Part shown: in pieces, positions 7,236-47,665 of the stretch | Layout: each line of letters starts with the position of its first letter | How positions within the stretch are numbered: position 1 is the first letter of the stretch | From: a virus | Direction: 5' to 3' (one strand) | DNA length: 47,848 nt | IMG/VR virus record: IMGVR_UViG_3300037557_000308 | Span: 1 to 47,848 of that record | Translations under genes and position numbers: made by a program | The notes under the pieces: model-generated | What the model saw: the letters and a program-made list of their open reading frames with translations, nothing else | What the model was told of the DNA's origin: nothing | Databases searched by the model: none

Positions 7236-8068
7236 TGTACAAGTCATTCAAACTCAAGACACCTCTTCGCTATCCTGGTGGCAAATCACGTGCTGTAAAA
7301 AAAATCTACCCATATCTTCCTGACTTGTCTTTGTACACCACATATAAGGAGTGTTTCCTGGGTGGTGGTAGCATGGCAATCTGGGCGACCCAACAGTTTC
7401 CTAGTTTGAATGTTGAGGTTTGTGATCTGTATGAACCTCTTATCAATTTTTGGAAAGAACTTCAGAGAGATGGAAACCGTATGGTTCGGACTCTCACTAA
7501 AGCAAAGCAAGAGCATAATAATCCTGACACTGCACGGGTTCTCTGTGGTGAGTGTAAACTAATTATCAATGATAAGTCACGTTCTAACCATGACCGTGCT
7601 TGTGCTTTCTATGTTGTAAACAAGTGTTCCTTCAGTGGGTTGACTGAATCCTCTTCTTTCTCTAAGCAGGCGAGTAACCAGAACTTCAGTCAGAGTGGTA
7701 TTGATCGTTTGTCTCAGTTTTCTGAGTTGATTCAAAACTGGAAGATTAGTCATGCTTCCTATGAATCTCTTCTCGGTGATATGGACAATGCATTCGTCTA
7801 TCTTGATCCCCCGTATGACATCAAAGACAACCTATACGGTCGTAGAGGATCTATGCACAAGTCTTTTGATCATGATGATTTTGCTGCTCAATGTAATGTA
7901 GCACAACCTGCCTGCCTGATTAGTTACAACTCTGATCAAATGGTAGAAGATCGGTTTGGTGACCAGTGGAAAGCAGGTGAGTTTGATCTGACTTATACCA
8001 TGCGTTCTGTTGGTGATTATATGGAAAATCAAACACAACGAAAAGAACTGCTACTTATGAACTACTAG
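7235..8068 (+). CDS. dam: DNA adenine methyltransferase (Dam, D12 class)
   Basis: This 277-residue protein transfers a methyl group from S-adenosylmethionine to the N6 of adenine. It has the D12-class N-terminal LRYPGGKSRAV (11-21), the SAM-binding CFLGGGSMAIW (40-50), and the catalytic DPPY at 191-194 (VYLDPPYD). Length fits E. coli Dam (278) and T4 Dam (259), which methylate GATC; specificity here is inferred. GATC is common throughout the window, so the phage does not strongly avoid it. Methylation could protect against host restriction or against the adjacent nuclease-like protein. A 13-bp tandem repeat overlaps its 3' end. Confidence 0.93.
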   Translation: MYKSFKLKTPLRYPGGKSRAVKKIYPYLPDLSLYTTYKECFLGGGSMAIWATQQFPSLNVEVCDLYEPLINFWKELQRDGNRMVRTLTKAKQEHNNPDTARVLCGECKLIINDKSRSNHDRACAFYVVNKCSFSGLTESSSFSKQASNQNFSQSGIDRLSQFSELIQNWKISHASYESLLGDMDNAFVYLDPPYDIKDNLYGRRGSMHKSFDHDDFAAQCNVAQPACLISYNSDQMVEDRFGDQWKAGEFDLTYTMRSVGDYMENQTQRKELLLMNY

Positions 8069-8087
8069 ATAGTTCTACTAGATAGTA
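8062..8087 (+). repeat. 13-bp tandem direct repeat
   Basis: CTACTAGATAGTT (8062-8074) is followed directly by CTACTAGATAGTA (8075-8087), one mismatch. It spans the dam stop codon and the 36-base gap before the next gene. It may be a replication slip or a protein-binding site. Confidence 0.7.
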
Positions 8088-8104
8088 ACGTCTAATTCAA
8101 TACT

Positions 8105-8404
8105 ATGCTGTCAACTCAGTATCGATTGCGACTGGAAAACATTTGCAAGAAAATTGTAAACCATGAAGAGATTCCTTTAGCAGATATGATCTGGGCAAAC
8201 AAACTTGCCAAAGCAAATACAACAGCAAAGACTTGGTTGAACCGTGCTAGGAGGGAGGTTTTGAATCCGGATGACGGTTTTTTCAATGATCTAAATCTTG
8301 GATCTCCGGACCCGACCGAGCACAAGAAGAAGTTTGATGGTGCGGATGATATCCAAGATTGGTTTCATCAAGAACGATGTGATGATTGGAGACAAAGAGA
8401 TTGA
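8105..8404 (+). CDS. Hypothetical soluble protein (99 aa)
   Basis: This charged, mostly helical protein has no membrane segment. It contains YRLRLENICKKI near the start, a Lys/Ala/Asn-rich helix in the middle and a Trp/Asp-rich C-terminus (DDIQDWFHQERCDDW). The start is ATG 8105. The stop (8402-8404) overlaps the TTG start of the next gene. No family recognised. Confidence 0.65.
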   Translation: MLSTQYRLRLENICKKIVNHEEIPLADMIWANKLAKANTTAKTWLNRARREVLNPDDGFFNDLNLGSPDPTEHKKKFDGADDIQDWFHQERCDDWRQRD

Positions 8405-20172: not shown

Positions 20173-20427
20173 ATGTCTTTCGCATCCCCTAAGTGGTTTG
20201 AGCGTTTTCCTCGGACTATCGCTAAAGCAGTCACCTGGCGTTCTTGGATGATGGTCACCAACTCTGTGATTGGTTGGATTGTCTCCGGTAACCCCTGGAA
20301 AGGTCTTACTATTGGACTGATGGCACTGGTAATCAACTCCACGCTTTACCTCCTTCATGAGCGACTGTGGAACCGTAGCGACTGGAACCGTCGTACCACT
20401 ACTGATGGTGACCGCGTAGTTATCTAA
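20173..20427 (+). CDS. DUF2061 membrane protein
   Basis: This 84-residue protein matches DUF2061: AKAVTWRSWMMVTNSVIGWI then a second hydrophobic segment (GLTIGLMALVINSTLYLLHERLW). The WR...HERxW ends are typical. It is predicted to have two transmembrane helices. Function of the family is unknown. ATG 20173 follows no strong Shine-Dalgarno site. It is followed by a CTAAATA late motif before the TRAP-like gene. Confidence 0.82.
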   Translation: MSFASPKWFERFPRTIAKAVTWRSWMMVTNSVIGWIVSGNPWKGLTIGLMALVINSTLYLLHERLWNRSDWNRRTTTDGDRVVI

Positions 20428-20435
20428 TCGGTTTC

Positions 20436-20442
20436 CTAAATA
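20436..20442 (+). promoter_or_regulatory. Late promoter motif CTAAATA before the TRAP gene
   Basis: CTAAATA lies 25 bases before ATG 20468 in the short gap after the DUF2061 gene. Placement matches other late promoters in the window. Confidence 0.55.
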
Positions 20443-20467: not shown

Positions 20468-21412
20468 ATGAAAACAATTCGCTGGGTTCTCGCCCATGAA
20501 CCAATTGAATTGTTCCTCAGAGCAGCAAAGCGTTTCAAAGCTTCCATGGAAGCGTGTGCTCCTGGAGAACTCAACGTTGAAATTCTAACTCTTTCTGAGT
20601 ATTCTGATAAGTATAAGGGTGGCGCTACAATCACCAAACATGATCTCCTCGAATTGATGGAGACTGGTGAAGTAGAGATGTCGCAGATGTATACGTCTAC
20701 ACTTGGTAGGAAGCATCACCGGGACATGTGGGCACTTGATATGCCTTTCTTGTTCCGTGACCATGACCACGCAAAAAATGTTCTGGAAGGTGAGGTTGGG
20801 CAATCTCTTCTCGACGGACTAAATAAGGATTCCAATGTTCAGGGTCTTGCATTCACCTATTCTGGTGGTTTCCGCATGATTCCTGCTAACAAGGAATTAC
20901 ACACAATTGAAGATTTTGAAGGAGTTCATCTCCGTTGTAACAAGTCTCCTATTGCCCAAGAGACCCTAAAAGCAGTTGGTGCAGTCCCTGTACCAATTGA
21001 ACTTGAACAGATCAATGAAGGTGTTCAAGAAGGTGCTATTGTTGGTGGTGAGTCTACCTATCCTCGTTTCTTCGGTCTGAAGCAAAACGAGTGTATGGAT
21101 ACTATCAATGACGCAGAGCATAGTCTCTTCCTTACTTCCATCATCGTTGCAAGCGACTTCTGGCAGACTCTTGACGAAGAGTTGAAAGGAAAAATCGAAG
21201 CAGCGTCCTTCGACGCAGCACGTGCTGAGCGTGTCTGGTCTGTTGAAGACATCGATGTTGTGAAATCTCAGTGTAAAGAAGAAGATATCACTGTTGTCAC
21301 CATGTCTGACTCAGAGCGTGGTCGTTTCAAGGATGCAACTGCACACTTGTACGATCAGTTCTCGGACATGTTCTCTGATGGTTTGCTTGATAGTATCAAG
21401 AACACCAAGTAA
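20468..21412 (+). CDS. TRAP transporter DctP-like substrate-binding protein, no signal peptide
   Basis: This 314-residue protein matches the DctP-family periplasmic binding proteins of TRAP transporters, which bind organic acids such as C4-dicarboxylates. Recognisable segments are MPFLFRDHDHAKNVLEG, the GGFRMI region, EGVHLRCNKSPIAQETLKA (which includes the family's substrate Arg) and PIELEQINEGVQEGAIVG. The family normally has a signal peptide of about 25 residues; here the mature fold begins at MKTIRWVLAHEP, so the product should be cytoplasmic. Membrane subunits DctQ/M are absent. It may have been reused as a cytoplasmic ligand sink or sensor. Confidence 0.85.
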   Translation: MKTIRWVLAHEPIELFLRAAKRFKASMEACAPGELNVEILTLSEYSDKYKGGATITKHDLLELMETGEVEMSQMYTSTLGRKHHRDMWALDMPFLFRDHDHAKNVLEGEVGQSLLDGLNKDSNVQGLAFTYSGGFRMIPANKELHTIEDFEGVHLRCNKSPIAQETLKAVGAVPVPIELEQINEGVQEGAIVGGESTYPRFFGLKQNECMDTINDAEHSLFLTSIIVASDFWQTLDEELKGKIEAASFDAARAERVWSVEDIDVVKSQCKEEDITVVTMSDSERGRFKDATAHLYDQFSDMFSDGLLDSIKNTK

Positions 21413-21430
21413 TCATCGAGATCATACCAT

Positions 21431-21438
21431 AATAAATA
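21431..21438 (+). promoter_or_regulatory. Late-promoter-like AATAAATA
   Basis: AATAAATA is followed at once by a terminator hairpin, with ATG 21482 downstream. It may be a weak late promoter for the PP-loop gene, but transcription would have to cross the hairpin. Confidence 0.3.
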
Positions 21439-21464
21439 ACCGGGGCACCTGTCCCGGTTTTTTT
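21438..21464 (+). terminator. Terminator after the TRAP-like gene
   Basis: AACCGGG (21438-21444) pairs with CCCGGTT (21453-21459) across an eight-base loop and runs into seven T's. It closes the TRAP gene. Confidence 0.88.
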
Positions 21465-21481
21465 GTATCTACTAATATATT

Positions 21482-22633
21482 ATGCACCCTCCATGGCATT
21501 GGGGACCCGAATATTTGCCAGGTCATATTCGGGATCATTCCCAGTTACGATTAGGATTGAAATTTTTTCCAGACGAAGTATACATCAATTGTTATTATAA
21601 TACTAGATTTGTTTGTAGGGATGGTAAACTACCTACTAAGCGTAAATATAAAATTTTATCACCACTGCCAGAAAATTTCTTCACTGATATGACGGTGGAA
21701 GAAGTATGTGTGGATGCCGTAGAGATCTTAGTTGAGAAAGCACGTGGTCGAACAATAAACCTACTATGGTCTGGTGGAATTGATAGCACAGTAGTATTGT
21801 ATGCTTTTATAAGAGCAGAGATTCCTTTTGTTGTTCACTTTGATAGTGGATCTATAACAGAATGTATAACAGGTTATAACGATATCCAAAAACATAGTTT
21901 GGCAACACCTGTCCAGCATAAGTATTCAGATAAAATTCCTCATAGTTCTCATATTTGTTCGGGAGACAAAAAGAGAGATGACGATTGCATTACCCCATAT
22001 GTAAATGATCCTAATAATTTTTTTGTTACTGGGGAAATAGGTGATCAAATATATGGTACGGGTAGAGTTTTTATCTATACACCAGAGCAACGTAATGCTT
22101 GTTTTAGACTAAACACTCCAGAAAAAAATGTCAAAATAATGGCTCCCTCAGTCAATGTTGTGCTAAACACAAAGGAACCTAATCTCAAGCAATGGCATTG
22201 GGCGTGGAGTTTTATGCTCAAGTATCAGTACGTTGCTCTAAGATGTGCTAAGCAATATAATTTGCATCCAGTAGAACCTGAGGAAAATGTCTGGGCATTT
22301 TATGATACTCCTAACTGGCAACGTTGGTCTATTACTCACCAAACTGCCAACAGTGCATGGCAAGATTTGCGAGAGTACAAGTGGGCATCAAAAGAATACA
22401 TATATCAGAACAATGGAGATGCATTCTATAGAGACAACAAACTAAAAACTCCTTCTGCAAATAGAGAACGTACAAAGGAAGGAGGAAACTTTGAGAAAGG
22501 AGTTACTGGTCTTGAAATAAATGATGAATACATGGCGGTTATCAAAAAAACTTTTGGATCCAACACTCCAGATTTTGAGCGTTTAGATGGCAATGGATAT
22601 ATAACAGAGACAGATACTAAATCAATGATATAA
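21482..22633 (+). CDS. PP-loop ATPase, asparagine-synthetase-like without amidotransferase
   Basis: This 383-residue protein has the PP-loop LLWSGGIDSTVV (SGGIDS at 97-102), which binds ATP and forms acyl- or nucleotidyl-adenylates. GEIGDQIYG (184-192) resembles the TGEGADELFG motif of asparagine synthetase B. The N-terminal glutamine amidotransferase domain of AsnB is missing, so ammonia or another nucleophile would be used directly. Other PP-loop families (tRNA thiolation, QueC, DndC) are possible. The gene overlaps the nuclease-like gene downstream (TAATG), so both are probably co-translated. Confidence 0.72.
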   Translation: MHPPWHWGPEYLPGHIRDHSQLRLGLKFFPDEVYINCYYNTRFVCRDGKLPTKRKYKILSPLPENFFTDMTVEEVCVDAVEILVEKARGRTINLLWSGGIDSTVVLYAFIRAEIPFVVHFDSGSITECITGYNDIQKHSLATPVQHKYSDKIPHSSHICSGDKKRDDDCITPYVNDPNNFFVTGEIGDQIYGTGRVFIYTPEQRNACFRLNTPEKNVKIMAPSVNVVLNTKEPNLKQWHWAWSFMLKYQYVALRCAKQYNLHPVEPEENVWAFYDTPNWQRWSITHQTANSAWQDLREYKWASKEYIYQNNGDAFYRDNKLKTPSANRERTKEGGNFEKGVTGLEINDEYMAVIKKTFGSNTPDFERLDGNGYITETDTKSMI

Positions 22634-35806: not shown

Positions 35807-36560
35807 TATTAGAATGAATCCTATTAGGGTTCGTAAGTTAGATATACCTGACGTAAATACAATATTTGAGAGAAACTTACGTGCACCAGAAGTTCTGTCA
35901 GTAGAACCACCTGTAAGTGTAATGATTGGTAGTCCAGTTGTAAACTTACCTGGTTGTGTAGAAGCACATATTGATGATGACAACCAACAGAACTTACCTG
36001 ATGATGATCCTAGGGGTGTAAGAATATTTTGTGATGCAGGCACTCCATCTTTTGATCCTATAGATTATAATGCGGAAGACTTAGATTTTGAGACTAACCA
36101 AAAAATTCCTCCTGTTCAAGCACCAGAACCACCAACGACTCCTGAAACTAACGCACCAAAGATTCCTAAGTGCCCTACAGAAGCACAAGAGTTGAAAGAA
36201 CCTGTAGGTACTTTGGTTGATGGCGGCACTAAAAAAATTACTGAGTATAGGTTGGTCGGACAGGAGTGCATACCTGTCAAAGTTGGTTTAGATATTCCAG
36301 ATCAAATAGTCAAAGCAATACCTACCGCAGGATCAATTACTACTACTGCTTCCATTGCTATAGTTGCTACTACGTCAGCATTGTTAGCAAAACCTTTGGC
36401 AGACTTGGTATTGAAGGTAGTCAAACCAACAGTCAAGAAAGTTATCAAAAAAATTGCTGCTATAAGAAAGAAGAAAGTTATCGTTGAGTCTCTACAGGAC
36501 CGCCGAGATCAGCAGCGGATCCGCTCACACGCGATTCGGAAACTGAAGGGGAAGGAATAG
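35793..36560 (+). CDS. Proline-rich membrane-anchored hypothetical protein
   Basis: This 255-residue protein starts at ATG 35793, with MDPIDIRMNPIRVRKLDIPD. It has an extended Pro/Asp-rich region (about 105-150) with two nearby Cys, a hydrophobic segment at about 185-210 (IVATTSALLAKPLADLVLKV), and a Lys/Arg-rich tail (KKVIKKIAAIRKKK). No signal peptide is seen. A charged tail following a membrane segment suggests a virion or membrane-associated role. Its last 83 bases overlap the 3' end of the opposite-strand gene. Confidence 0.62.
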   Translation: MDPIDIRMNPIRVRKLDIPDVNTIFERNLRAPEVLSVEPPVSVMIGSPVVNLPGCVEAHIDDDNQQNLPDDDPRGVRIFCDAGTPSFDPIDYNAEDLDFETNQKIPPVQAPEPPTTPETNAPKIPKCPTEAQELKEPVGTLVDGGTKKITEYRLVGQECIPVKVGLDIPDQIVKAIPTAGSITTTASIAIVATTSALLAKPLADLVLKVVKPTVKKVIKKIAAIRKKKVIVESLQDRRDQQRIRSHAIRKLKGKE

Positions 36561-37347
36561 AGTGACGGTGTGGTGAGATATAGTTTTTATTCATGACTAC
36601 AACGTCAGAACATATTTTAGCATATTCACTTTTGGGGTGGAAAAAGATTCCAGATTTTATCAGTTCCCCACAATTTTTCAATCTTGCAATTTCAAAGTCT
36701 AATCTTTTATTAGCAATATGCTGTGCTTGTAATTCTATTTGGGTTTCTGCTGCTTTCTTACATTGATCTTGTAGTTGTCTGTCCATTGGTCTAGACCAAG
36801 TGGCACTGAAACCAAGGGATATATTACTATTATTTTTCTGTCCTGTTCTCGTCGGAACGTAATATAAAATCGAGCCCGGGTTATCAGGAGCACCATCATC
36901 GTCGAGATCTCGCATGTCATACACGGGATCATCAAATGTTGATTCGTATGGGTGTGTTTGGGATAGTGATCCCGTAACGAATGGGGTTATATTCATAGTG
37001 GGACCTTGACACTGGATTCCCCCACCATAAGTATTAGTTATGTATGGACCTTGAAGGACCTGGATCGCCTGATTAGTCACCGAGCCTGAACTATTAGCAA
37101 TCGGATTTGCAGTAGCACTTACCCCACCAACATCTGTGTTGGCGAGGGCAGGTGTTATATTACCTAAACCAAGAACTACTGCGAGAAAATACTTGTAGTA
37201 TCTGTGACTGAGTTTATGGTTGTGGTTCTTTGTATAATCGTCTGTGTTGCCATGCCTGGACCTGAGTAGTGTTCCGTGAACTGGAACGCTGCTCCTGGAG
37301 TTGTCAATGTCCAGTCGGGTTTCTTGTCTAGGTCTAGTCCTGTCCAT
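36478..37347 (-). CDS. Exported minus-strand protein with unclear start
   Basis: The frame is open from ATG 37347 to a stop at 36478. The first 50 residues lie inside the preceding minus-strand gene in another frame and look non-biological. A signal-peptide-like sequence (RYYKYFLAVVLGLGNITPALA) begins near 37203 but has no ATG, GTG or TTG before it. The mature part includes GGGIQCQGPTMNITPFVTGS and a late KICSDVVVMNKNYISP region with paired cysteines. The start codon may have been lost, or the product may be made by -1 frameshifting from the upstream gene. Function unknown. Confidence 0.55.
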   Translation of the reverse strand: MDRTRPRQETRLDIDNSRSSVPVHGTLLRSRHGNTDDYTKNHNHKLSHRYYKYFLAVVLGLGNITPALANTDVGGVSATANPIANSSGSVTNQAIQVLQGPYITNTYGGGIQCQGPTMNITPFVTGSLSQTHPYESTFDDPVYDMRDLDDDGAPDNPGSILYYVPTRTGQKNNSNISLGFSATWSRPMDRQLQDQCKKAAETQIELQAQHIANKRLDFEIARLKNCGELIKSGIFFHPKSEYAKICSDVVVMNKNYISPHRHSIPSPSVSESRVSGSAADLGGPVETQR

Positions 37348-37622
37348 GTTGATGTCACGCCATTCAAAGTGTTGCTAGGGGTTGAACCAGAATCTGGTGA
37401 GATACTGGTTCCATTATGTTGCACATTATTTCCTGTCACGCTATAGGTCCAACCTGTAGCATAATCAATGCTATTGATGGTCTCTGTTACACTAGAAGTT
37501 GTTTCTGTGTGGCTCGTCATCGAGCCCTGTGTGAAGTTTGGTACCACAGGAACAGATTTTGCAATCCTTGCAGTCGCAAGGACAGTTGCAATTGCAACCA
37601 GAGCAAGTGATAGTTTGTTCAT
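37176..37622 (-). CDS. Exported Thr/Ser-rich protein
   Basis: This 148-residue minus-strand protein has a signal peptide (MNKLSLALVAIATVLATARI, cut probably near residue 23). The mature part is Thr/Ser/Asn-rich (TETTSSVTETINSIDYATGW) with polar beta character and no Cys. It lies three bases after the previous minus-strand gene. Similarity in style suggests a set of exported or surface proteins. Function unknown. Confidence 0.7.
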   Translation of the reverse strand: MNKLSLALVAIATVLATARIAKSVPVVPNFTQGSMTSHTETTSSVTETINSIDYATGWTYSVTGNNVQHNGTSISPDSGSTPSNTLNGVTSTWTGLDLDKKPDWTLTTPGAAFQFTEHYSGPGMATQTIIQRTTTINSVTDTTSIFSQ

Positions 37623-37625
37623 AAC

Positions 37626-38135
37626 TCACTTGACAGTTACCTCAGATACAAATTGACCAGTCGCACTCGTGCCAGCTCCGCCCGCAGTCAAAGTTACAGC
37701 ACCCGCTGTGGTCAGTGTGCCAGCTAGTGTTCCAGCCACACCACCACTTGAAGTCGTAACTGATCCGAAAGCAGGAAGAGCAGGAACTACTCCAGACGTG
37801 ACAGTTGTACCTGTGGTATTTACAGAATCACCCATAGTGAAAGATTCTGAAAAACTGTGTGCACTGCCTGCTGTAGTCATAGCATATGTACCGTCCGTCA
37901 TGGTGGCGGGGGCAGTCAATGCATTATCACCAGTAGCGCCAGTAAGACCGCCGAAGGTGGTTGCAGTAATATTGTTGCCACTTACAGCATACGTAGACCC
38001 AATTCTGGTAGCTTGAGATGCCGCAGCATCAACACTCAATTGGGTGGAAGTAGTCATGCGATGAATCAAGTCTGCCTTTGCTGGCAGTGCGATTGTGGAA
38101 CCCACTATCGCTACTGCAAAAAGCACTCTTTTCAT
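37626..38135 (-). CDS. Exported Ala/Gly/Thr-rich protein
   Basis: This 169-residue minus-strand protein has a signal peptide (MKRVLFAVAIVGSTIALPAKA) with an AKA cut site near residue 21. The mature region is rich in Ala, Gly, Thr and Ser (GTTVTSGVVPALPAFGSVTT) with no Cys. It lies directly behind a minus-strand CTAAATA late motif at 38161-38167, so it leads the minus-strand operon. Low complexity suggests a surface or fibre-like protein. Function unknown. Confidence 0.72.
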   Translation of the reverse strand: MKRVLFAVAIVGSTIALPAKADLIHRMTTSTQLSVDAAASQATRIGSTYAVSGNNITATTFGGLTGATGDNALTAPATMTDGTYAMTTAGSAHSFSESFTMGDSVNTTGTTVTSGVVPALPAFGSVTTSSGGVAGTLAGTLTTAGAVTLTAGGAGTSATGQFVSEVTVK

Positions 38136-40160: not shown

Positions 40161-40391
40161 ATGTCTAGAGGCCAGTTTCTCGCCAAGTTCAAAAACGTCA
40201 CCCACCACCTGGTAGATGCCGTTGAGTCTAAGGTAGATCTAGAGTACGATCACCCTTCACTTTACGATCAACTCATCAGTCACTACAAACAAGAATCAGA
40301 GTTTGATTTTTACGGAGACAAAGAGAAGGATTATGATGTGGTTATAGATAAACTTGAATATGATTTGATGAACACTGGAGTTATGCAGTGA
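40161..40391 (+). CDS. Small hypothetical protein leading the sugar module
   Basis: This 76-residue protein (MSRGQFLAKFKNVTHHLVDAV, then KDYDVVIDKLEYDLM) is acidic and helical and has no catalytic motif I recognise. ATG 40161 lies just after the sigma-70 promoter; the in-frame GTG at 40125 would overlap the promoter and is rejected. Its stop overlaps the cupin gene start by GTGA. Confidence 0.6.
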   Translation: MSRGQFLAKFKNVTHHLVDAVESKVDLEYDHPSLYDQLISHYKQESEFDFYGDKEKDYDVVIDKLEYDLMNTGVMQ

Positions 40392-40747
40392 AAGAAGAAC
40401 GCCCTTGGGGTTGGTATGAAACTATTGAAAGTGGTGAAGGATACAAAGTAAAAAAAATTCACGTACATTCAGGGCAACGTTTCTCACTACAGTTCCATAG
40501 AAAACGAGAAGAACACTGGGTTATTATTGATGGTACGGGTGTAGTAACACTCGGAGAACATGAATATCAGGCTAACCCTGGTAGTTTTTTTACCGTAAGT
40601 ATTGAGCAACGGCATCGTGTCGCAGCGGGTAAGGATGGTCTTACTTTTATTGAAGTTCAGAGAGGGCAATGTAGTGAGAGAGATATTGTTAGACTAGAGG
40701 ACGATTACGGTCGTCACGTACCATCTTTCTTGGAAATGTTGACATGA
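40388..40747 (+). CDS. Cupin, type II mannose-6-phosphate isomerase-like
   Basis: This 119-residue cupin has RPWGWYETIESGEGYKVKK, IHVHSGQRFSLQFHRKREEH and PGSFFTVSIEQRHRV. It matches the C-terminal isomerase domain of type II phosphomannose isomerase/ManC, which makes mannose-6-phosphate. The GDP-mannose pyrophosphorylase domain of ManC is absent. Start GTG 40388 overlaps the previous stop. Together with GDP-mannose 3,5-epimerase downstream it suggests a GDP-mannose route, but the pyrophosphorylase must come from host or elsewhere. Confidence 0.8.
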   Translation: MKEERPWGWYETIESGEGYKVKKIHVHSGQRFSLQFHRKREEHWVIIDGTGVVTLGEHEYQANPGSFFTVSIEQRHRVAAGKDGLTFIEVQRGQCSERDIVRLEDDYGRHVPSFLEMLT

Positions 40748-41688
40748 CATATATGGTAACCGGCGGTGCCGGGTTCATCGGGAGTAATTTTTTACACTTT
40801 CTTCGTAGGAAAACTGATGAAGAGATTGTTGTTCTTGATAACTTGACATATGCTGCTGACCTAAGGTTTATTCCTAGGGGGCAGCAGTTTCAGTTTGAGT
40901 GGTGTGACATTACGAATGAAGAGCATGTTCATTTCTTGTTTGAGAAGTATGCTCCAAGAAAGGTATGGCACTTCGCTGCTGAGAGTCATGTAGATAATAG
41001 TATTACCAACTACAGACCATTTTTAGAATCAAACGTTGTTGGTACTATCAATTTACTCAATGCATCCTTGAACATGGGGATTGAAAAGTTCCATCACATC
41101 TCTACTGATGAGGTGTATGGATCCCTTGAGTATGATGATGTAGAACTATTCAAAGAAGACACTCCATATAATCCTAGCAATCCATACTCTGCAAGTAAAG
41201 CAGCGTCAGATCATTATGTAAAGACTTGGCATAACACATATGATTTACCGTATTTGATTACTAACTGTAGTAATAACTATGGAAGGCATCAGCATGAAGA
41301 GAAACTGATCCCTAAAATTATCAAACGTGCTATGAAGGATCAGAACATTTTCATGTATGGTGGTGGTCAACAGATTCGTGACTGGTTGTCTGTGGTAGAT
41401 CACTGCAAAGCAATCTGGTCTCTAGAAGAATGTGGTATCATCAATGATCAATTCAATATTGGTGGTGGATGTGAGATGAGAAATATTGATGTCACCAAGA
41501 TGGTGCTTGATGCTATCGATAAACCCTACGGTCTTATTGGCATTTCAGATCAAAGACCCGGACAAGACAAACGATATGCCATAGATTATGGTAAAATAAC
41601 AAAGACTACTGGGTGGGAACCCGCTATTGAATTTGAACTTGGATTGCGAGCAACTGTATCATGGTACTTAGAAAGATGGGGAATGTGA
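40744..41688 (+). CDS. rfbB: dTDP-glucose 4,6-dehydratase RfbB-like
   Basis: This 314-residue extended SDR has TGGAGFIGSNFLH (6-18), HFAAESHVDNSI, STDEVYGSLE with the catalytic Thr/Asp/Glu, and YSASKAASDHYV with Tyr/Lys. It also has TNCSNNYGRHQHEEKLIP, all typical of RmlB/RfbB. It makes dTDP-4-keto-6-deoxyglucose from dTDP-glucose. The dTDP-glucose synthase gene is not in the window. It overlaps the cupin by ATGA and the next gene by 13 bases. Confidence 0.9.
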   Translation: MTYMVTGGAGFIGSNFLHFLRRKTDEEIVVLDNLTYAADLRFIPRGQQFQFEWCDITNEEHVHFLFEKYAPRKVWHFAAESHVDNSITNYRPFLESNVVGTINLLNASLNMGIEKFHHISTDEVYGSLEYDDVELFKEDTPYNPSNPYSASKAASDHYVKTWHNTYDLPYLITNCSNNYGRHQHEEKLIPKIIKRAMKDQNIFMYGGGQQIRDWLSVVDHCKAIWSLEECGIINDQFNIGGGCEMRNIDVTKMVLDAIDKPYGLIGISDQRPGQDKRYAIDYGKITKTTGWEPAIEFELGLRATVSWYLERWGM

Positions 41689-42512
41689 AATCGTTCAACA
41701 GTCCAGTCACTCTTTACGGTCCTGGTTTTGTAGGTGGTAGGTATGCTGAGATGTTTCCTGATACGATAGTACAGGAACGCGATGAATACAAACCACAATC
41801 TAAGAAGATCCTTTACATGATCTCTACAGTGGACAATTATAATGTCCATAAAGATGTTGGTTTAGATGTTGACACTAACCTTCGTGTGTTATGTGATGTC
41901 CTAGAGAACTGTCGCAAAGAAGACATTGAGTTCAACTTTATCTCTTCTTGGTTTGTCTATGGTAAAGGTGGACCTATCCCTGCGTTTGAGGATTCTTTAT
42001 GTAATCCTACTGGGTTCTATAGTATCACCAAGAGGTGTGCAGAAGACTTGATCAAGTCTTTCTGTGAGGTGTATAAGATGAAGTATCGTATCCTTCGTTT
42101 GTGTAATGTTTTGGGTGATGATCCTAAAGCATCGAAGCAGAAGAATGCAATCATGTGGATGATCAATCAACTCAAAGAGGATAAACCAATCAACCTTTAT
42201 GATGGTGGTAGTCATCGTCGAGATGTCATGCACGTTGATGATGTGTGTCGTGCTATCAAAACTGTGATTGATGACGGTGACTTGAATGCCACATATAATA
42301 TTGGGTCAGGTAGACCTACAACAATCGGTGAGATCGTTGAGATCGCTGCTAATTGTACGGGTACTAGATCCCATATAGATAGTATTGAACCACCAAAGTT
42401 TCATAAGGATGTCCAGACTCAAGACTTTTATCTAGACACCAGTAAACTACAATCGTTAGGTTTCAAACCTACTATGGACACCCTTGAGATGGTTGAATCG
42501 TTATGTCTGTGA
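41676..42512 (+). CDS. NAD-dependent epimerase/dehydratase
   Basis: This 278-residue SDR-like protein has a variant dinucleotide loop YGPGFVGGRY, the SSWFVYGKGG catalytic region and FYSITKRCAED (Tyr/Lys). RRDVMHVDDVCRAI and YNIGSGRPTTI are typical of epimerases. The G-P-G loop is unlike a perfect GxxGxxG but keeps the Rossmann turn. ATG 41676 is used; GTG 41685 overlapping the previous stop is possible. It probably changes or reduces a 4-keto sugar in this operon. Confidence 0.76.
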   Translation: MGNVKSFNSPVTLYGPGFVGGRYAEMFPDTIVQERDEYKPQSKKILYMISTVDNYNVHKDVGLDVDTNLRVLCDVLENCRKEDIEFNFISSWFVYGKGGPIPAFEDSLCNPTGFYSITKRCAEDLIKSFCEVYKMKYRILRLCNVLGDDPKASKQKNAIMWMINQLKEDKPINLYDGGSHRRDVMHVDDVCRAIKTVIDDGDLNATYNIGSGRPTTIGEIVEIAANCTGTRSHIDSIEPPKFHKDVQTQDFYLDTSKLQSLGFKPTMDTLEMVESLCL

Positions 42513-43807
42513 AGAGTAAGGTTGAAGATTTTGTTGCTTCGCTAGAGGCAGATGGAGAAGAACTATTCCCCTTCATGGCAAACAAGGGGTGGAAACCTGG
42601 TGACAATGTGTATTACTCTGGTCCCTATTGGGATGAGAAGGAACCTGTTGCTGCTATCACCACCATGCTACAGGGTAAGTGGTTGCCTGCTGGTGAGGAA
42701 GTCAATAAATTTGAACGTGCATTCTCCAAACAGTTTGGGTTTGACCACTCTGTGATGGTGAACAGTGGATCATCTGCCAACCTGGTGATGATTGCTGCAC
42801 TCAAAAAGTATTTTGATTGGCATGATGGAGATGAGATTATCGTCTGCACTTGTGGTTTCCCCACCACTATCAATCCCATCATCCAGAACGGACTCAAACC
42901 AGTCTTTGTTGATATCAACTACGATGATCTCAACTGGGATCTTGATCAACTAGAGAGTAAGATTACTCCTAGAACAGTGGCGCTTTTTTCGTCTCCTGTT
43001 CTGGGAAACCCCTATGACTTCGATAAGTTCATTGAGATTGTCAATAGGAATAACTTGCGGTACGTCGCTGACAACTGTGACTCGCTCGGTTCCAAGTGGC
43101 GTGGTGAGTTGCTTACCAAACATGCCGTCGCAGCGTCTTGTTCGTTCTATCCAGCGCACCATATCAGCACGATTGAAGGCGGGATGGTTTCCTCCAACAT
43201 TGAGCAGATCGTTCAGATCGCCAGGTCCTTTGCCTGGTGGGGGAGAGGTTGTTATTGTGTAGGATCCCAGAATAAATTGCCCAACGGTGTCTGTGGTGCT
43301 CGGTTCGATAGATGGTTGGAAGGGTACGATCAAGATGTCGATCATAAGTACGTCTTTGGCGTTCAGGGATACAACCTCAAGCCTGCCGACCTGCAAGGGT
43401 CTATTGGGTTGGTACAGTTGACTAAGCAAGACGATATACATCGCATCCGTCGTAGCAACAAAGCTAGACTTCATGAGATCTTCAGTCAAATTCCTGGTGC
43501 TCGGGTTATTGAAGAGAAAGAGCATGCAGAGACCAGTTGGTTTGGTGTTCCTATTGTATGTGGAGAATATAAACACCGCCTTGTAAAATATTTAGAAGAC
43601 AATAAAGTCCAAACAAGAAACTATTTTGCTGGTAATATTCTAATGCATCCTGCATATAGACATATTGAACCTGCAAGTAACTATCCAAATGCATGTAAGG
43701 TGTTGGATAATGTATTTTTTGTAGGATGTAGTCCCGTTATTACTGAACCCATGCTAGAATATATAGATGAAGTTGTATGCAATTACTGTAGTAAGTACTA
43801 TCAATGA
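42503..43807 (+). CDS. rfbH: E1/RfbH-type CDP-4-keto-6-deoxyglucose-3-dehydrase
   Basis: This 434-residue DegT-fold protein is of the E1 (AscC/RfbH) group. In SFYPAHHIS, H219-H220 replaces the Lys of ordinary aminotransferases, so PMP is held without a Schiff base. Cysteines C192, C250, C252 and C264 follow the known E1 [2Fe-2S] pattern C-x57-C-x1-C, with a longer last gap. CxC lies in WWGRGCYCVG and the last Cys in NGVCGARF. It removes the C3 hydroxyl of CDP-4-keto-6-deoxyglucose, the first step to 3,6-dideoxy sugars; an E3 reductase is normally needed and was not seen. ATG 42503 overlaps the previous stop. Confidence 0.85.
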   Translation: MSVKSKVEDFVASLEADGEELFPFMANKGWKPGDNVYYSGPYWDEKEPVAAITTMLQGKWLPAGEEVNKFERAFSKQFGFDHSVMVNSGSSANLVMIAALKKYFDWHDGDEIIVCTCGFPTTINPIIQNGLKPVFVDINYDDLNWDLDQLESKITPRTVALFSSPVLGNPYDFDKFIEIVNRNNLRYVADNCDSLGSKWRGELLTKHAVAASCSFYPAHHISTIEGGMVSSNIEQIVQIARSFAWWGRGCYCVGSQNKLPNGVCGARFDRWLEGYDQDVDHKYVFGVQGYNLKPADLQGSIGLVQLTKQDDIHRIRRSNKARLHEIFSQIPGARVIEEKEHAETSWFGVPIVCGEYKHRLVKYLEDNKVQTRNYFAGNILMHPAYRHIEPASNYPNACKVLDNVFFVGCSPVITEPMLEYIDEVVCNYCSKYYQ

Positions 43808-44895
43808 AAACAGCATTAGTATTGGGTGCCGGTGGTTTCATCGGCAGTCACATGGTCAAACGTCTCAAGTCTGAAGGATATTGGGTTCGTGGTGTAGACC
43901 TCAAGGTTCCTGACTTCTCAGATTCAGCAGCGGATGAATTCATCCAAGGTGATCTGCGAAGATATTCTATTGTCGAACGTGTGATTCAGTACAAAGGTAA
44001 ACAGGGTAACTTTTATAACTCTGTTCCTTACCAGCACATTGGCACCTTTGATGAGATCTATCAGTTTGCTGCCGACATGGGTGGTGCTGGTTACATCTTC
44101 ACGGGTGAGCATGATGCAGACATCATGCATAACTCTGCAAGCATCAACTTGAACTTGCTACAGGCAGTCCACAAATTCAATGAGACCTTTGATGGTCGTA
44201 ATAAAGAGTGGACAGAAGCAAATCGTCCTAAGAAAGATCAACCCACAAAGATCTTTTACAGTTCTTCTGCCTGCATGTATCCAGAACATAACCAACTTGA
44301 TCCTGATAACCCTGACTGCCGTGAAGAATCCGCATACCCAGCAGCACCAGACTCCGAATACGGATGGGAAAAACTCTTCAGTGAGCGGCTCTATCTTAGT
44401 TTCGCAAGGAATCATGGCATCCCTGTTTGTATTGCTAGGTATCACAATATCTTTGGTCCCGAAGGTACCTGGTACGGTGGAAAAGAGAAAGCTCCCGCTG
44501 CCATCTGTCGAAAGGTTGCCTATGCTAATCCCGGAGCAAGAATCGAAGTCTGGGGGGATGGATTACAAACTAGGTCTTTCCTATACATCGATGAATGCAT
44601 CGAAGCAACTCGACGTTTGATGCAGTCAGACTTCCAGGGACCTGTCAACATTGGTTCTGAAGAGATGGTAACTATCAACCAACTGGTAGATACTGCTGCC
44701 AAGGTTGCCAACAAAGAAATTGGTAAGAAGCACGTAGACGTTCCTCATACTGGTGTACGTGGTCGCAACTCTAACAATGATCTCATCCGAGAAAAACTTG
44801 GATGGGATTATAATCAAACTCTAGAGGAAGGTATGAGGAAAACATATAACTGGATCATGCTTCAAATTGCCACGGATTTTACTAACGACAAATGA
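43804..44895 (+). CDS. gme: GDP-mannose 3,5-epimerase (GME-like)
   Basis: This 363-residue extended SDR closely resembles plant GME. FAADMGGAGYIF, YSSSACMYPEHNQL (C157), YGWEK (Y186, K190) and GGKEKAPAAICRK (K229) fit the plant signatures with catalytic Cys, Tyr and Lys residues. WGDGLQTRSFLYIDEC and GVRGRNSNNDLI are equally GME-like. The enzyme converts GDP-D-mannose to GDP-L-galactose. Small insertions at about residues 60-80 and 128-147 differ from plant enzymes. The next genes may use the product for a surface glycan. Confidence 0.88.
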   Translation: MKTALVLGAGGFIGSHMVKRLKSEGYWVRGVDLKVPDFSDSAADEFIQGDLRRYSIVERVIQYKGKQGNFYNSVPYQHIGTFDEIYQFAADMGGAGYIFTGEHDADIMHNSASINLNLLQAVHKFNETFDGRNKEWTEANRPKKDQPTKIFYSSSACMYPEHNQLDPDNPDCREESAYPAAPDSEYGWEKLFSERLYLSFARNHGIPVCIARYHNIFGPEGTWYGGKEKAPAAICRKVAYANPGARIEVWGDGLQTRSFLYIDECIEATRRLMQSDFQGPVNIGSEEMVTINQLVDTAAKVANKEIGKKHVDVPHTGVRGRNSNNDLIREKLGWDYNQTLEEGMRKTYNWIMLQIATDFTNDK

Positions 44896-45548
44896 ACACA
44901 ACTTATAACTATGAACGGGATGCTCTGAAGAATCCTTTCACTGGGCATACTAAAGTTTTTGAAAATTTCTCTCAGGCATACCAGGATTTATTTGTCCTGA
45001 CTATGCTGAAAGGAAAGAAGAATGGTAAGTATGTGGAGGTGGGTGCTAACCATCCCCAATCTTTGAGCAATACTTTTCTACTTGAGACAGTATTTGGTTG
45101 GCGTGGTTTCTCTGTAGAAATTGAGCGTTCAATGTGTGAGGTTTTCAACGGAGACCTGGCACGGCAGAACCATTGTTATGAAGCAGATGCAACTACGTTT
45201 GATTACTCCGAGGCAATTGCTAAAGAGAAGTGGCAGGGTCGTGTTGATTACTTCTCTGTTGACTGTGAACCTCCTGAGGTGACGTTCAAGGCACTCAAAG
45301 CATTCCCCCATGATAAATTCCGTGCCAGCGTCATCACCTTTGAACATGACTCTTACAAGGACGGTGACACCATTCGTGATCATTCACGTCAGTTCTTAGA
45401 GGATCTTGGTTACCAACTGGTATGTGCCAGTGTTTGTAATGGTGACAATGCTTATGAAGATTGGTGGGTTGATCCTACTGTTGTAAAGGAGTCAGTTTGG
45501 AAACCTTTTGAGTGTGTTGATAAAGAAGCACGAACTATTTTGTTATGA
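44892..45548 (+). CDS. FkbM-family methyltransferase
   Basis: This 218-residue SAM-dependent methyltransferase has GKYVEVGANHPQSLSNT (motif I), WRGFSVEIE, DYFSVDCEPPEV and SVITFEHDSY, all FkbM-like. FkbM enzymes O-methylate sugars or polyketides, and in phage glycan clusters they usually modify a sugar. ATG 44892 overlaps gme by four bases and its stop overlaps the next start. Substrate is inferred from context. Confidence 0.83.
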   Translation: MNTTYNYERDALKNPFTGHTKVFENFSQAYQDLFVLTMLKGKKNGKYVEVGANHPQSLSNTFLLETVFGWRGFSVEIERSMCEVFNGDLARQNHCYEADATTFDYSEAIAKEKWQGRVDYFSVDCEPPEVTFKALKAFPHDKFRASVITFEHDSYKDGDTIRDHSRQFLEDLGYQLVCASVCNGDNAYEDWWVDPTVVKESVWKPFECVDKEARTILL

Positions 45549-46318
45549 AACTATCTCATTGGTATGGTCGTTTAGGTAACAACATTCAGCAAGTTGCTAA
45601 TGGGTTGATGAGTGCTCAGGCATACAAAACGACTTTTGAAAATACCCTTGATCATAGTATTATTGAAAAATTTTCCTGTAGTTTTGGAGATAACATAGTC
45701 GATGCCGAAGGAAAGTTTTTCTATTGGGATGGTCCGTTCAAAGAAGTTCCGGTTGATAAGAATGTCTGCTATACGCAGATGCGTTCGTTTTGTAAGGAGT
45801 TTGTTCGCCCCAAACTACGACTACCCAGAGTGGATGTTGATTCTGATACTCTTGTTATTCATATTAGGAGTGGAGATGTTTTTGACCAAAGGGTTACTAA
45901 CCCTAATCAATATGTTCCTAATCCTTTTTGTTTTTATTCTGCATTGTTGGAGCAGTTTGACAAGTGTATCGTAGTTACTGAAGATATAAAATATAATCCT
46001 ATCCTCAAAGAGTTGGCATGGTACCCTAAGGTTACTATCCAATCTACAAGTGTAGAAGAAGACTTTGCTACGTTGTTGAATGCAAAACATCTTGCTACCT
46101 CTGGTGTAGGAACGTTTGGAATGGCAGCAGCGTTATGCAGTGACACTGTAGAGAACATATATTGTACTAATCTACATATAATGGAGCATCTAAACTATCA
46201 GATGCTGTATAATACTGACATTACCATCCACATGATGGTTCTGGATAACTACATCAAAACTGGAGAATGGACTAACAGTGATCAGCAAAGAGAATTCCTC
46301 TTTTCTTACAAGGCATAG
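45545..46318 (+). CDS. Fucosyltransferase-like glycosyltransferase (GT11-like)
   Basis: This 257-residue protein has YGRLGNNIQQVANGLMSA at the start and VIHIRSGDVFDQ at about 105, the HxRxGD-type motif of fucosyltransferases that use GDP-sugars. Later TSGVGTFGMAAAL resembles the third conserved region. A GDP-fucose or GDP-L-galactose donor is plausible because gme sits two genes upstream, but the donor is not proven. ATG 45545 overlaps the previous stop. Confidence 0.72.
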   Translation: MKLSHWYGRLGNNIQQVANGLMSAQAYKTTFENTLDHSIIEKFSCSFGDNIVDAEGKFFYWDGPFKEVPVDKNVCYTQMRSFCKEFVRPKLRLPRVDVDSDTLVIHIRSGDVFDQRVTNPNQYVPNPFCFYSALLEQFDKCIVVTEDIKYNPILKELAWYPKVTIQSTSVEEDFATLLNAKHLATSGVGTFGMAAALCSDTVENIYCTNLHIMEHLNYQMLYNTDITIHMMVLDNYIKTGEWTNSDQQREFLFSYKA

Positions 46319-46820
46319 ACTTAGTGATGGGATAGTGACGCAGATTGAAAGTCTGTGTAAAAAACTTCCTTATTATTATTTTGAAGACTGTGCCTACGGA
46401 AATGATCATCACCCTCTAAGGACGGTGATGAACCCTTATTTTAGTTCTACTTTGTTGGGTGTAGATGGAAGCATTTCACCATTCTTTCGCGAGTTCCCTT
46501 GGAACGCTATCGGTCGAGAGATTGGTATGCCTAACAACCCAATGATGAGGTCTCATATGACCTTACAATATCCACGATCAGAGTCGTTTGGTATTCCCCA
46601 CAACTCACATATAGATGATGACCGTCCACACATTGTAGGGTTGTATTATCCTAATGATGCTGACGGAGATACTTTCTTTTTTGATGGAGACCAAAATGTC
46701 ATACATAGAGAACCTCCGGAGCGGGGTAAGATGGTTACTTTTGACGGAAAGCAATATCATTCCAGTTCTTCTCCAATTACTGGTGTTAGATTTACTTTGA
46801 ATATCAATTATTGTCCATGA
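46278..46820 (+). CDS. 2-oxoglutarate/Fe(II)-oxygenase-like protein
   Basis: This 180-residue protein has NSHIDDDRPH (H111-x-D113), H161 (KQYHSSSS) and R171 (VRFTLNI), completing the HxD...H...R set. It is the fourth such oxygenase in the window and sits in the sugar cluster, so it may hydroxylate a sugar or lipid intermediate. GTG 46278 overlaps the previous gene by 41 bases; GTG 46335 gives a shorter protein and is possible. A GGAG lies about 12 bases before 46278. Confidence 0.72.
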   Translation: MISKENSSFLTRHRLSDGIVTQIESLCKKLPYYYFEDCAYGNDHHPLRTVMNPYFSSTLLGVDGSISPFFREFPWNAIGREIGMPNNPMMRSHMTLQYPRSESFGIPHNSHIDDDRPHIVGLYYPNDADGDTFFFDGDQNVIHREPPERGKMVTFDGKQYHSSSSPITGVRFTLNINYCP

Positions 46821-47665
46821 AAATCTTCGACGTATTCACTTTTTACAATGAATTAGATCTACTAGAACTGAGGATGAACATCCTCGGAGACTCAGTAGAT
46901 TATTTTGTTATCAATGAGGCAAACATTACCTTTACAGGTAAACCCAAACCACTTTACTTTCAAGAGAACCGTAAGCGGTTCAAGAAGTGGGAGGATAAAA
47001 TTATCCACCAGGTTACAATTGATGACAACAAAACTTTTGAGGCATACTATTCTGACATTCCCTACCACAGGAGCATGTTGGAAGAGAACATCTATCAACT
47101 GCCACTACCATATCAACGTGCATGCTTCCATAAGGACAGTGCAATCTATGGTCTGTTAGGTAAGGCAGAGGACGACGACCTCATCCTTACGAGTGATGCT
47201 GATGAGATCGCGAACCCTGAAGCATTGAAGTGTCTAGATGAGTGGTTTGATCCTAACCATCACTATGTTTTGACAGGTCCTCTGTTCTATTACTACCTCA
47301 ATGTAAAGTGTGAAGAGCAGTGGATGGGCACACGAGTGTGTGACTTCAAGACACTGAAGAGTATGAGTGTTGACAAACTCCGTCAGTCACATCAGGATGC
47401 ATACAAACTTGCCGATGCATCATGGCATTGGAGTTTCTTTGGTGATGCTGACACTGTGCGTCAGAAGATGGATGCCTATGAGCATCAAGAAAACAATTTG
47501 GAAGAGTATCGTTCCAGTATGGAGGATAGGATCGAGCAGAACCTAGACCCATATGGTAGAACATATCTTTATCAACCAACTGTTGTAGAAATTGATGATA
47601 CTTTCCCTAAGTACGTCCGGTCTCAGAAGAATCGTAAACTCAAAAAGTTTGTAAAAACATTATGA
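46817..47665 (+). CDS. GT17-like glycosyltransferase
   Basis: This 282-residue protein begins MKIFDVFTFYNELDLLELRM and has DYFVINEANITFTGKPKPLY, typical of glycosyltransferase family 17 (beta-1,4-mannosyl-glycoprotein N-acetylglucosaminyltransferase type). LILTSDADEIANPEA carries a DAD metal site. In phages and bacteria such proteins act on surface glycans; donor unknown. ATG 46817 is preferred over the TTG two codons earlier. Its stop overlaps the next gene. Confidence 0.82.
   Translation: MKIFDVFTFYNELDLLELRMNILGDSVDYFVINEANITFTGKPKPLYFQENRKRFKKWEDKIIHQVTIDDNKTFEAYYSDIPYHRSMLEENIYQLPLPYQRACFHKDSAIYGLLGKAEDDDLILTSDADEIANPEALKCLDEWFDPNHHYVLTGPLFYYYLNVKCEEQWMGTRVCDFKTLKSMSVDKLRQSHQDAYKLADASWHWSFFGDADTVRQKMDAYEHQENNLEEYRSSMEDRIEQNLDPYGRTYLYQPTVVEIDDTFPKYVRSQKNRKLKKFVKTL

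Follow-up and report, generated by a model that had tools for sequence, protein, structure and literature searches.

TRAP binding proteins are described in textbooks as extracytoplasmic receptors, which raises the question of what such a protein would do in a virus that encodes it without an export signal. The gene at issue lies in an IMG/VR virus record, analysed here as a single stretch of 47,848 nucleotides (the window):

20468..21412, plus strand: leaderless DctP-family (TRAP type) solute-binding protein (SBP), 314 aa, ATG start

The product matches the Pfam DctP family (PF03480, SBP_bac_7; E 2.1e-42) from profile position 13 of 286, and exceeds the cut-off of the NCBIfam TRAP_S1 model (107.7 bits against 50); its score of 122 with TIGR00787 (dctP) is below the cut-off of 175. 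The AF2 model (pLDDT 81) has its first strand at residues 2-7, and its PDB fold matches are TRAP binding proteins (4mx6, TM 0.80/0.83; 4xfe; 4nq8), identity to solved DctP-family structures being around 22%. Both the fold and the length of the mature domain are shared with the DctP, or TRAP-T, SBPs (PF03480; HiSiaP, 4xfe). An N-terminal extension is excluded by a stop codon 5' of the gene:

20417..20419, plus strand: TAG stop, in frame and upstream of the SBP ATG (sequence)

None of the 16 codons between this stop and the SBP ATG is ATG, GTG, TTG, CTG, ATT or ATA. At 50 further IMG/VR loci the SBP gene begins with this ATG too, and is preceded by an in-frame stop at a distance of 1-29 codons. 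Since these relatives begin at the same position, the start has not been mis-called, and the shared ATG and in-frame stops of all 51 loci rule out a leader encoded upstream or joined by a frameshift fusion. The first-pass annotation had described a DctP-like fold beginning at residue 2-5 with no export signal, and proposed a check for an upstream in-frame start or a signal peptide missed 5' of 20468; the fold does begin at residue 2, behind the stop at 20417, and no such start or peptide was found across the 51 loci.

The window virus is marine, T4-like and cyanophage-like, and its host is probably cyanobacterial, since its DNA polymerase matches that of a single-cell marine virus at 76% and those of Synechococcus and Prochlorococcus phages at 67-70%, and psbA is present in four related contigs. 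The T4-like DNA polymerase and a cyanophage OMP in the window, together with the psbA genes of these relatives, also rule out a bacterial contaminant contig. Several distant SBP contigs, up to 345 kb in size, carry gp23, identifying them as T4-type viruses. A first scan detected 53 viral loci with SBP relatives (69-100% identity, mostly full-length matches), whilst two profile scans yielded confirmed relatives in 249 and 352 viral contigs, 80 of them being retained from each scan; the contigs are fragments, the loci of repeated scans overlap and the dereplicated sets are small. A set of 50,697 sequenced phage records, from which those nearest to the window may have been withheld, contained no close relative; its DctP matches are at 21-33% and in several cases lie in small or bacterial-labelled records. 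A plasmid origin of the gene was rejected, the best plasmid matches having around 30% identity. Two uncultured Caudovirales phage entries named 'TRAP transporter solute receptor DctP/TeaA' (A0A6J7WI33 and A0A6J7WKL0) are viral and have the same fold, one being 57% identical to the SBP over around 150 residues; however, these are short entries (159-162 aa) with names that look automatically annotated, and no study of the leader, neighbours or function of such entries was found in the literature searched. Titles and abstracts of the open-licence literature contained no paper on phage TRAP/DctP or leaderless binding proteins like this SBP, matches there for 'DctP' and phage apparently referring to the nucleotide dCTP.

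The absence of a leader extends beyond the window clade. Signal peptides were judged from hydropathy and by eye, rather than with a trained predictor, in 174 SBP ORFs representing 57 distinct N-terminal contexts, with overlapping loci counted in. Clear hydrophobic leaders were confined to Bacteriovoracaceae (L058, L059, L140, L141 and L143), and where the N-terminus of a viral copy was clear, no leader could be recognised; the ORFs of L053 and L107 are truncated by the contig end, whilst in L057 and the viral L162 a hydrophobic open frame lies upstream, yet a nearer Met stands just before the fold. As far as sequence can tell, the viral SBP family is leaderless, the export signal that typifies DctP-family members being absent from the window SBP and its viral relatives alike. 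These viruses do place signals on other binding proteins, of the TAXI and Bug/TctC types, hence the missing leader looks like a property of the leaderless DctP-type family itself.

By contrast with the leader, the ligand site is common to secreted and leaderless proteins. Three residues are of particular relevance:

20873..20875, plus strand: codon of Arg136, a candidate ligand residue, invariant in leaderless and secreted relatives (alignment; coordinate computed from the ORF start)
20933..20935, plus strand: codon of Arg156, the TRAP carboxylate arginine (SiaP R147), invariant (alignment)
21050..21052, plus strand: codon of Glu195 (GES motif), invariant (alignment)

All three are present in every secreted and leaderless member aligned. 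R156 lies in an LRxxxSP context that aligns with SiaP R147, the equivalent of which is found in 96.8% of the TRAP SBP family (PMC4646407). The window SBP therefore retains the conserved carboxylate arginine of the DctP family, and shares the GGFR and E195 positions with these proteins as well. The carboxylate site is intact, and the ligand would belong to the organic carboxylates. A host transport gene that was decaying or had been truncated by accident might produce an SBP without a leader in a window without a cognate permease, but omega is 0.03-0.14 across close SBP pairs, indicating purifying selection, mean column identity is 79% over 27 members and the start is fixed at 51 loci. This explanation is already contradicted, and we give it next to no credence.

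DctM had no match in the window, and no transporter subunits were present among the first 25 of the 58 Pfam families matched in 46 other ORFs. The same search, which covered DctM, found none in 15 of 19 related contigs, these being fragmentary records, and, judged by DctM within that scope, no cognate DctQ/DctM permease lies near the window SBP. In the remaining four, which do bear DctM, the loci read include a TAXI-type SBP as well. Hence the earlier statement that transporter subunits are lacking is true of the window, but not of some sister phages, which have a TAXI-type TRAP permease. In L020 (12199-14461) the minus strand between gp17 and gp18 encodes a fused TRAP permease, which exceeds the TRAP_fused cut-off, together with a signal-bearing TAXI binding protein; the pair recurs in the cyanophage-like contigs L008, L009, L013, L018 and L022. 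Such a DctM was rejected as the cognate permease of the leaderless SBP, as it is of the TAXI type and has its own signal-bearing binding protein. Signal-bearing Bug/TctC-type proteins are encoded directly before the leaderless DctP gene in L102 (5028-5918) and L110 (5026-5907). The phage Bug/TctC and TAXI proteins (PBP2_Bug_TTT; TRAP_TAXI) are likewise phage-encoded secondary-transporter binding proteins, some on the same contigs, but they belong to other families and those read bear signal peptides, unlike the leaderless SBP.

It is conceivable that the SBP arrives in the periplasm by a path requiring no classical signal, be it non-classical export, lysis or the DUF2061 membrane protein encoded next to it, and there feeds a host TRAP permease; its family membership, the adjoining membrane protein and the TRAP permease of some sister phages are all in keeping with such a route. 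However, viral members lack a hydrophobic leader and the fold starts as early as residue 2; normal signal peptides are present on the TAXI and Bug binding proteins of these phages or their sisters, and the phage permease is of the TAXI type with a binding protein of its own. We regard this route as very unlikely.

The window SBP thus differs from DctP/TRAP-T SBPs in being phage-encoded, with no signal peptide and no cognate DctM found. It differs also in its conserved neighbours:

20173..20427, plus strand: DUF2061 small membrane protein (PF09834, E 1e-13), immediate upstream neighbour conserved in the window clade, with a two-TM hairpin read from sequence
21482..22633, plus strand: PP-loop ATP-pyrophosphatase (SGGIDST) with an AsnB/beta-lactam-synthetase-like C-domain, conserved downstream neighbour (motif, predicted fold)

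The identities of these neighbours are based on sequence and predicted folds. The block of DUF2061, SBP and PP-loop genes follows gp41-mazG in the window clade; the L020 clade has it between gp16 and gp17, and it is seen again in distant viruses. After dereplication at 90%, 24 of 31 viral loci had a PP-loop gene no more than 5 kb from the SBP. The partnership is not strict, since the viral loci L172, L187, L111, L189 and L194 have none within this distance; in the first three, the SBP gene is found amid T4-type structural genes. In the cyanophage contigs G008-G011 (68-133 kb), every AsnB-like gene found adjoins that of the SBP; G006 bears additional copies at other sites, and those of G027 and G156 are distant from the SBP gene. 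SGGIDS is kept in every copy of the PP-loop neighbour. This motif and a GExGD-like second motif resemble those of asparagine synthetase B and beta-lactam synthetase, which are also the best PDB matches of the predicted fold, if at low TM-scores; however, the phage protein has no recognised glutaminase domain and no Pfam match over cut-off. Asn_synthase matched two of 25 members, weakly, and comparison with Pfam and PDB sequences gave no clear family.

Other genes recur in the vicinity of the SBP. Those for a 250-aa 'LDRF' protein (no Pfam family) and PP-loop proteins are found near the leaderless SBP in L119 (1851-5965), L057, L061 and L100-L102, the LDRF cassette of L119 also including an oxygenase-like gene and a desaturase. 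Upstream of DUF2061, L047 (6538-7599) and L048-L050 encode a second DctP-like protein of 353 aa, which is diverged and likewise leaderless.

Two sequence motifs flank the SBP gene:

20436..20442, plus strand: CTAAATA, a T4/cyanophage late-promoter-like motif (TATAAATA in close relatives, e.g. L001) (sequence)
21430..21464, plus strand: AATAAATA motif with a GC hairpin and T-run, late-promoter-like/terminator-like, between the SBP and PP-loop genes (read from sequence)

An exact TATAAATA occurs no more than 60 nt upstream of 33 of the 51 SBP genes, compared with 6% of other ORFs; for the relaxed motif the figures are 51 of 51 and 19%, although the loci are related and so do not represent 51 independent events. 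In the distant clade the motif is rarer (exact 7/79, relaxed 34/79). Its presence suggests that the SBP is expressed late. A virion or assembly protein reusing the DctP fold might equally have a late-promoter-like motif, and in several lineages the gene is placed amid structural genes or adjoins gp16/gp17. Such a role is nevertheless improbable, as the gene changes position (it comes after gp41-mazG in the window clade), secreted cellular relatives share the invariant ligand site, and some bacterial chromosomes have leaderless copies adjoining flagellin and housekeeping-like genes.

These chromosomal copies occur in Bacteriovoracaceae, which have both secreted versions, with a clear Sec-like signal, and leaderless versions of the SBP; genomes G039 and G045 contain the two together. 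In both, the leaderless copy follows a 200-aa oxygenase-like gene ('oxygenase' being read from sequence), a relative of which had no match in Pfam, and in L138 an MFS transporter gene lies upstream of the oxygenase-like gene. Chromosomal leaderless copies are accompanied by enzyme-like genes too, no TRAP permease was recognised beside them, and at the two leaderless Bacteriovoracaceae loci the stretch read lacked a PP-loop neighbour. The secreted copies group together in the SBP tree (93/99), the uncertain root of which is compatible with either loss or gain of leaders. Bacteria with both versions provide a natural comparison. Near the secreted copies of L141 and L143 are methylmalonyl-CoA mutase-like and propionyl-CoA carboxylase-like genes (names read from sequence).

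A cytoplasmic role, as the first-pass annotation had suggested, remains the best reading, leaderlessness being kept throughout the viral family, though both the phage context and the width of the family had been missed. The tagless relatives and the frequent ligase-gene neighbour indicate that the SBP probably acts inside the infected cell on an organic acid. Free ligand buffering or sensing fits less well, since the DUF2061 and ATP-dependent PP-loop neighbours suggest a pathway that is biosynthetic or involves a ligase. Our tentative preference, held at a little under an even chance, is for a late protein that binds a carboxylate in the cytoplasm and serves a pathway of PP-loop ligases of the AsnB/beta-lactam-synthetase type. 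As a bare mature DctP domain, the SBP would stay in the cytoplasm of the infected cell, where it would be made late in infection and bind a small organic carboxylate via its conserved arginine pocket. It would then most likely be a substrate-binding, delivery or buffering partner of the adjoining PP-loop enzymes, and may be tethered to the inner membrane through the DUF2061 protein. The terminator-like hairpin between the SBP and PP-loop genes of the window is a point against this coupling.

Alternatively, the SBP might be a cytoplasmic sponge or buffer that sequesters a host metabolite or carboxylate signal, for metabolic control or counter-defence, and feeds no enzyme; counter-defence proteins of the Tad1/Tad2/Acb2 kind bind and sequester an immune signal. 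A leaderless binding fold with an invariant site and a late motif would suit this purpose, and the SBP is sometimes duplicated (L106, L121 and L192) or has no PP-loop neighbour. PADLOC gave no match, which says little here as its library does not cover sponges. The PP-loop genes near 24 of the 31 dereplicated viral loci and the enzyme-like chromosomal neighbours favour a pathway role instead, and we consider a sponge rather unlikely.

If a ligase pathway is indeed served, a large viral family that keeps its binding site, is not exported and lies beside ATP-dependent ligases would mean that the fold has been put to a new use, and would point the way to an as yet unrecognised metabolic pathway in phages. 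It is possible, if doubtful, that these genes represent a widespread and undescribed module of uncultured T4-like phages, in which a cytoplasmic TRAP-fold SBP, AsnB-type ligases and DUF2061 make or modify a small carboxylate late in infection.

Elsewhere in the window, three minus-strand ORFs (36478-38135), two of which have signal-peptide-like starts, are found amid mostly plus-strand genes, and a run of sugar-nucleotide and glycosyltransferase genes (epimerases, a DegT aminotransferase and GT17) occupies 40388-47665. Amongst the related contigs, the 228-kb phage contig L105 contains a tmRNA-like gene (7887-8327) detected by ARAGORN.
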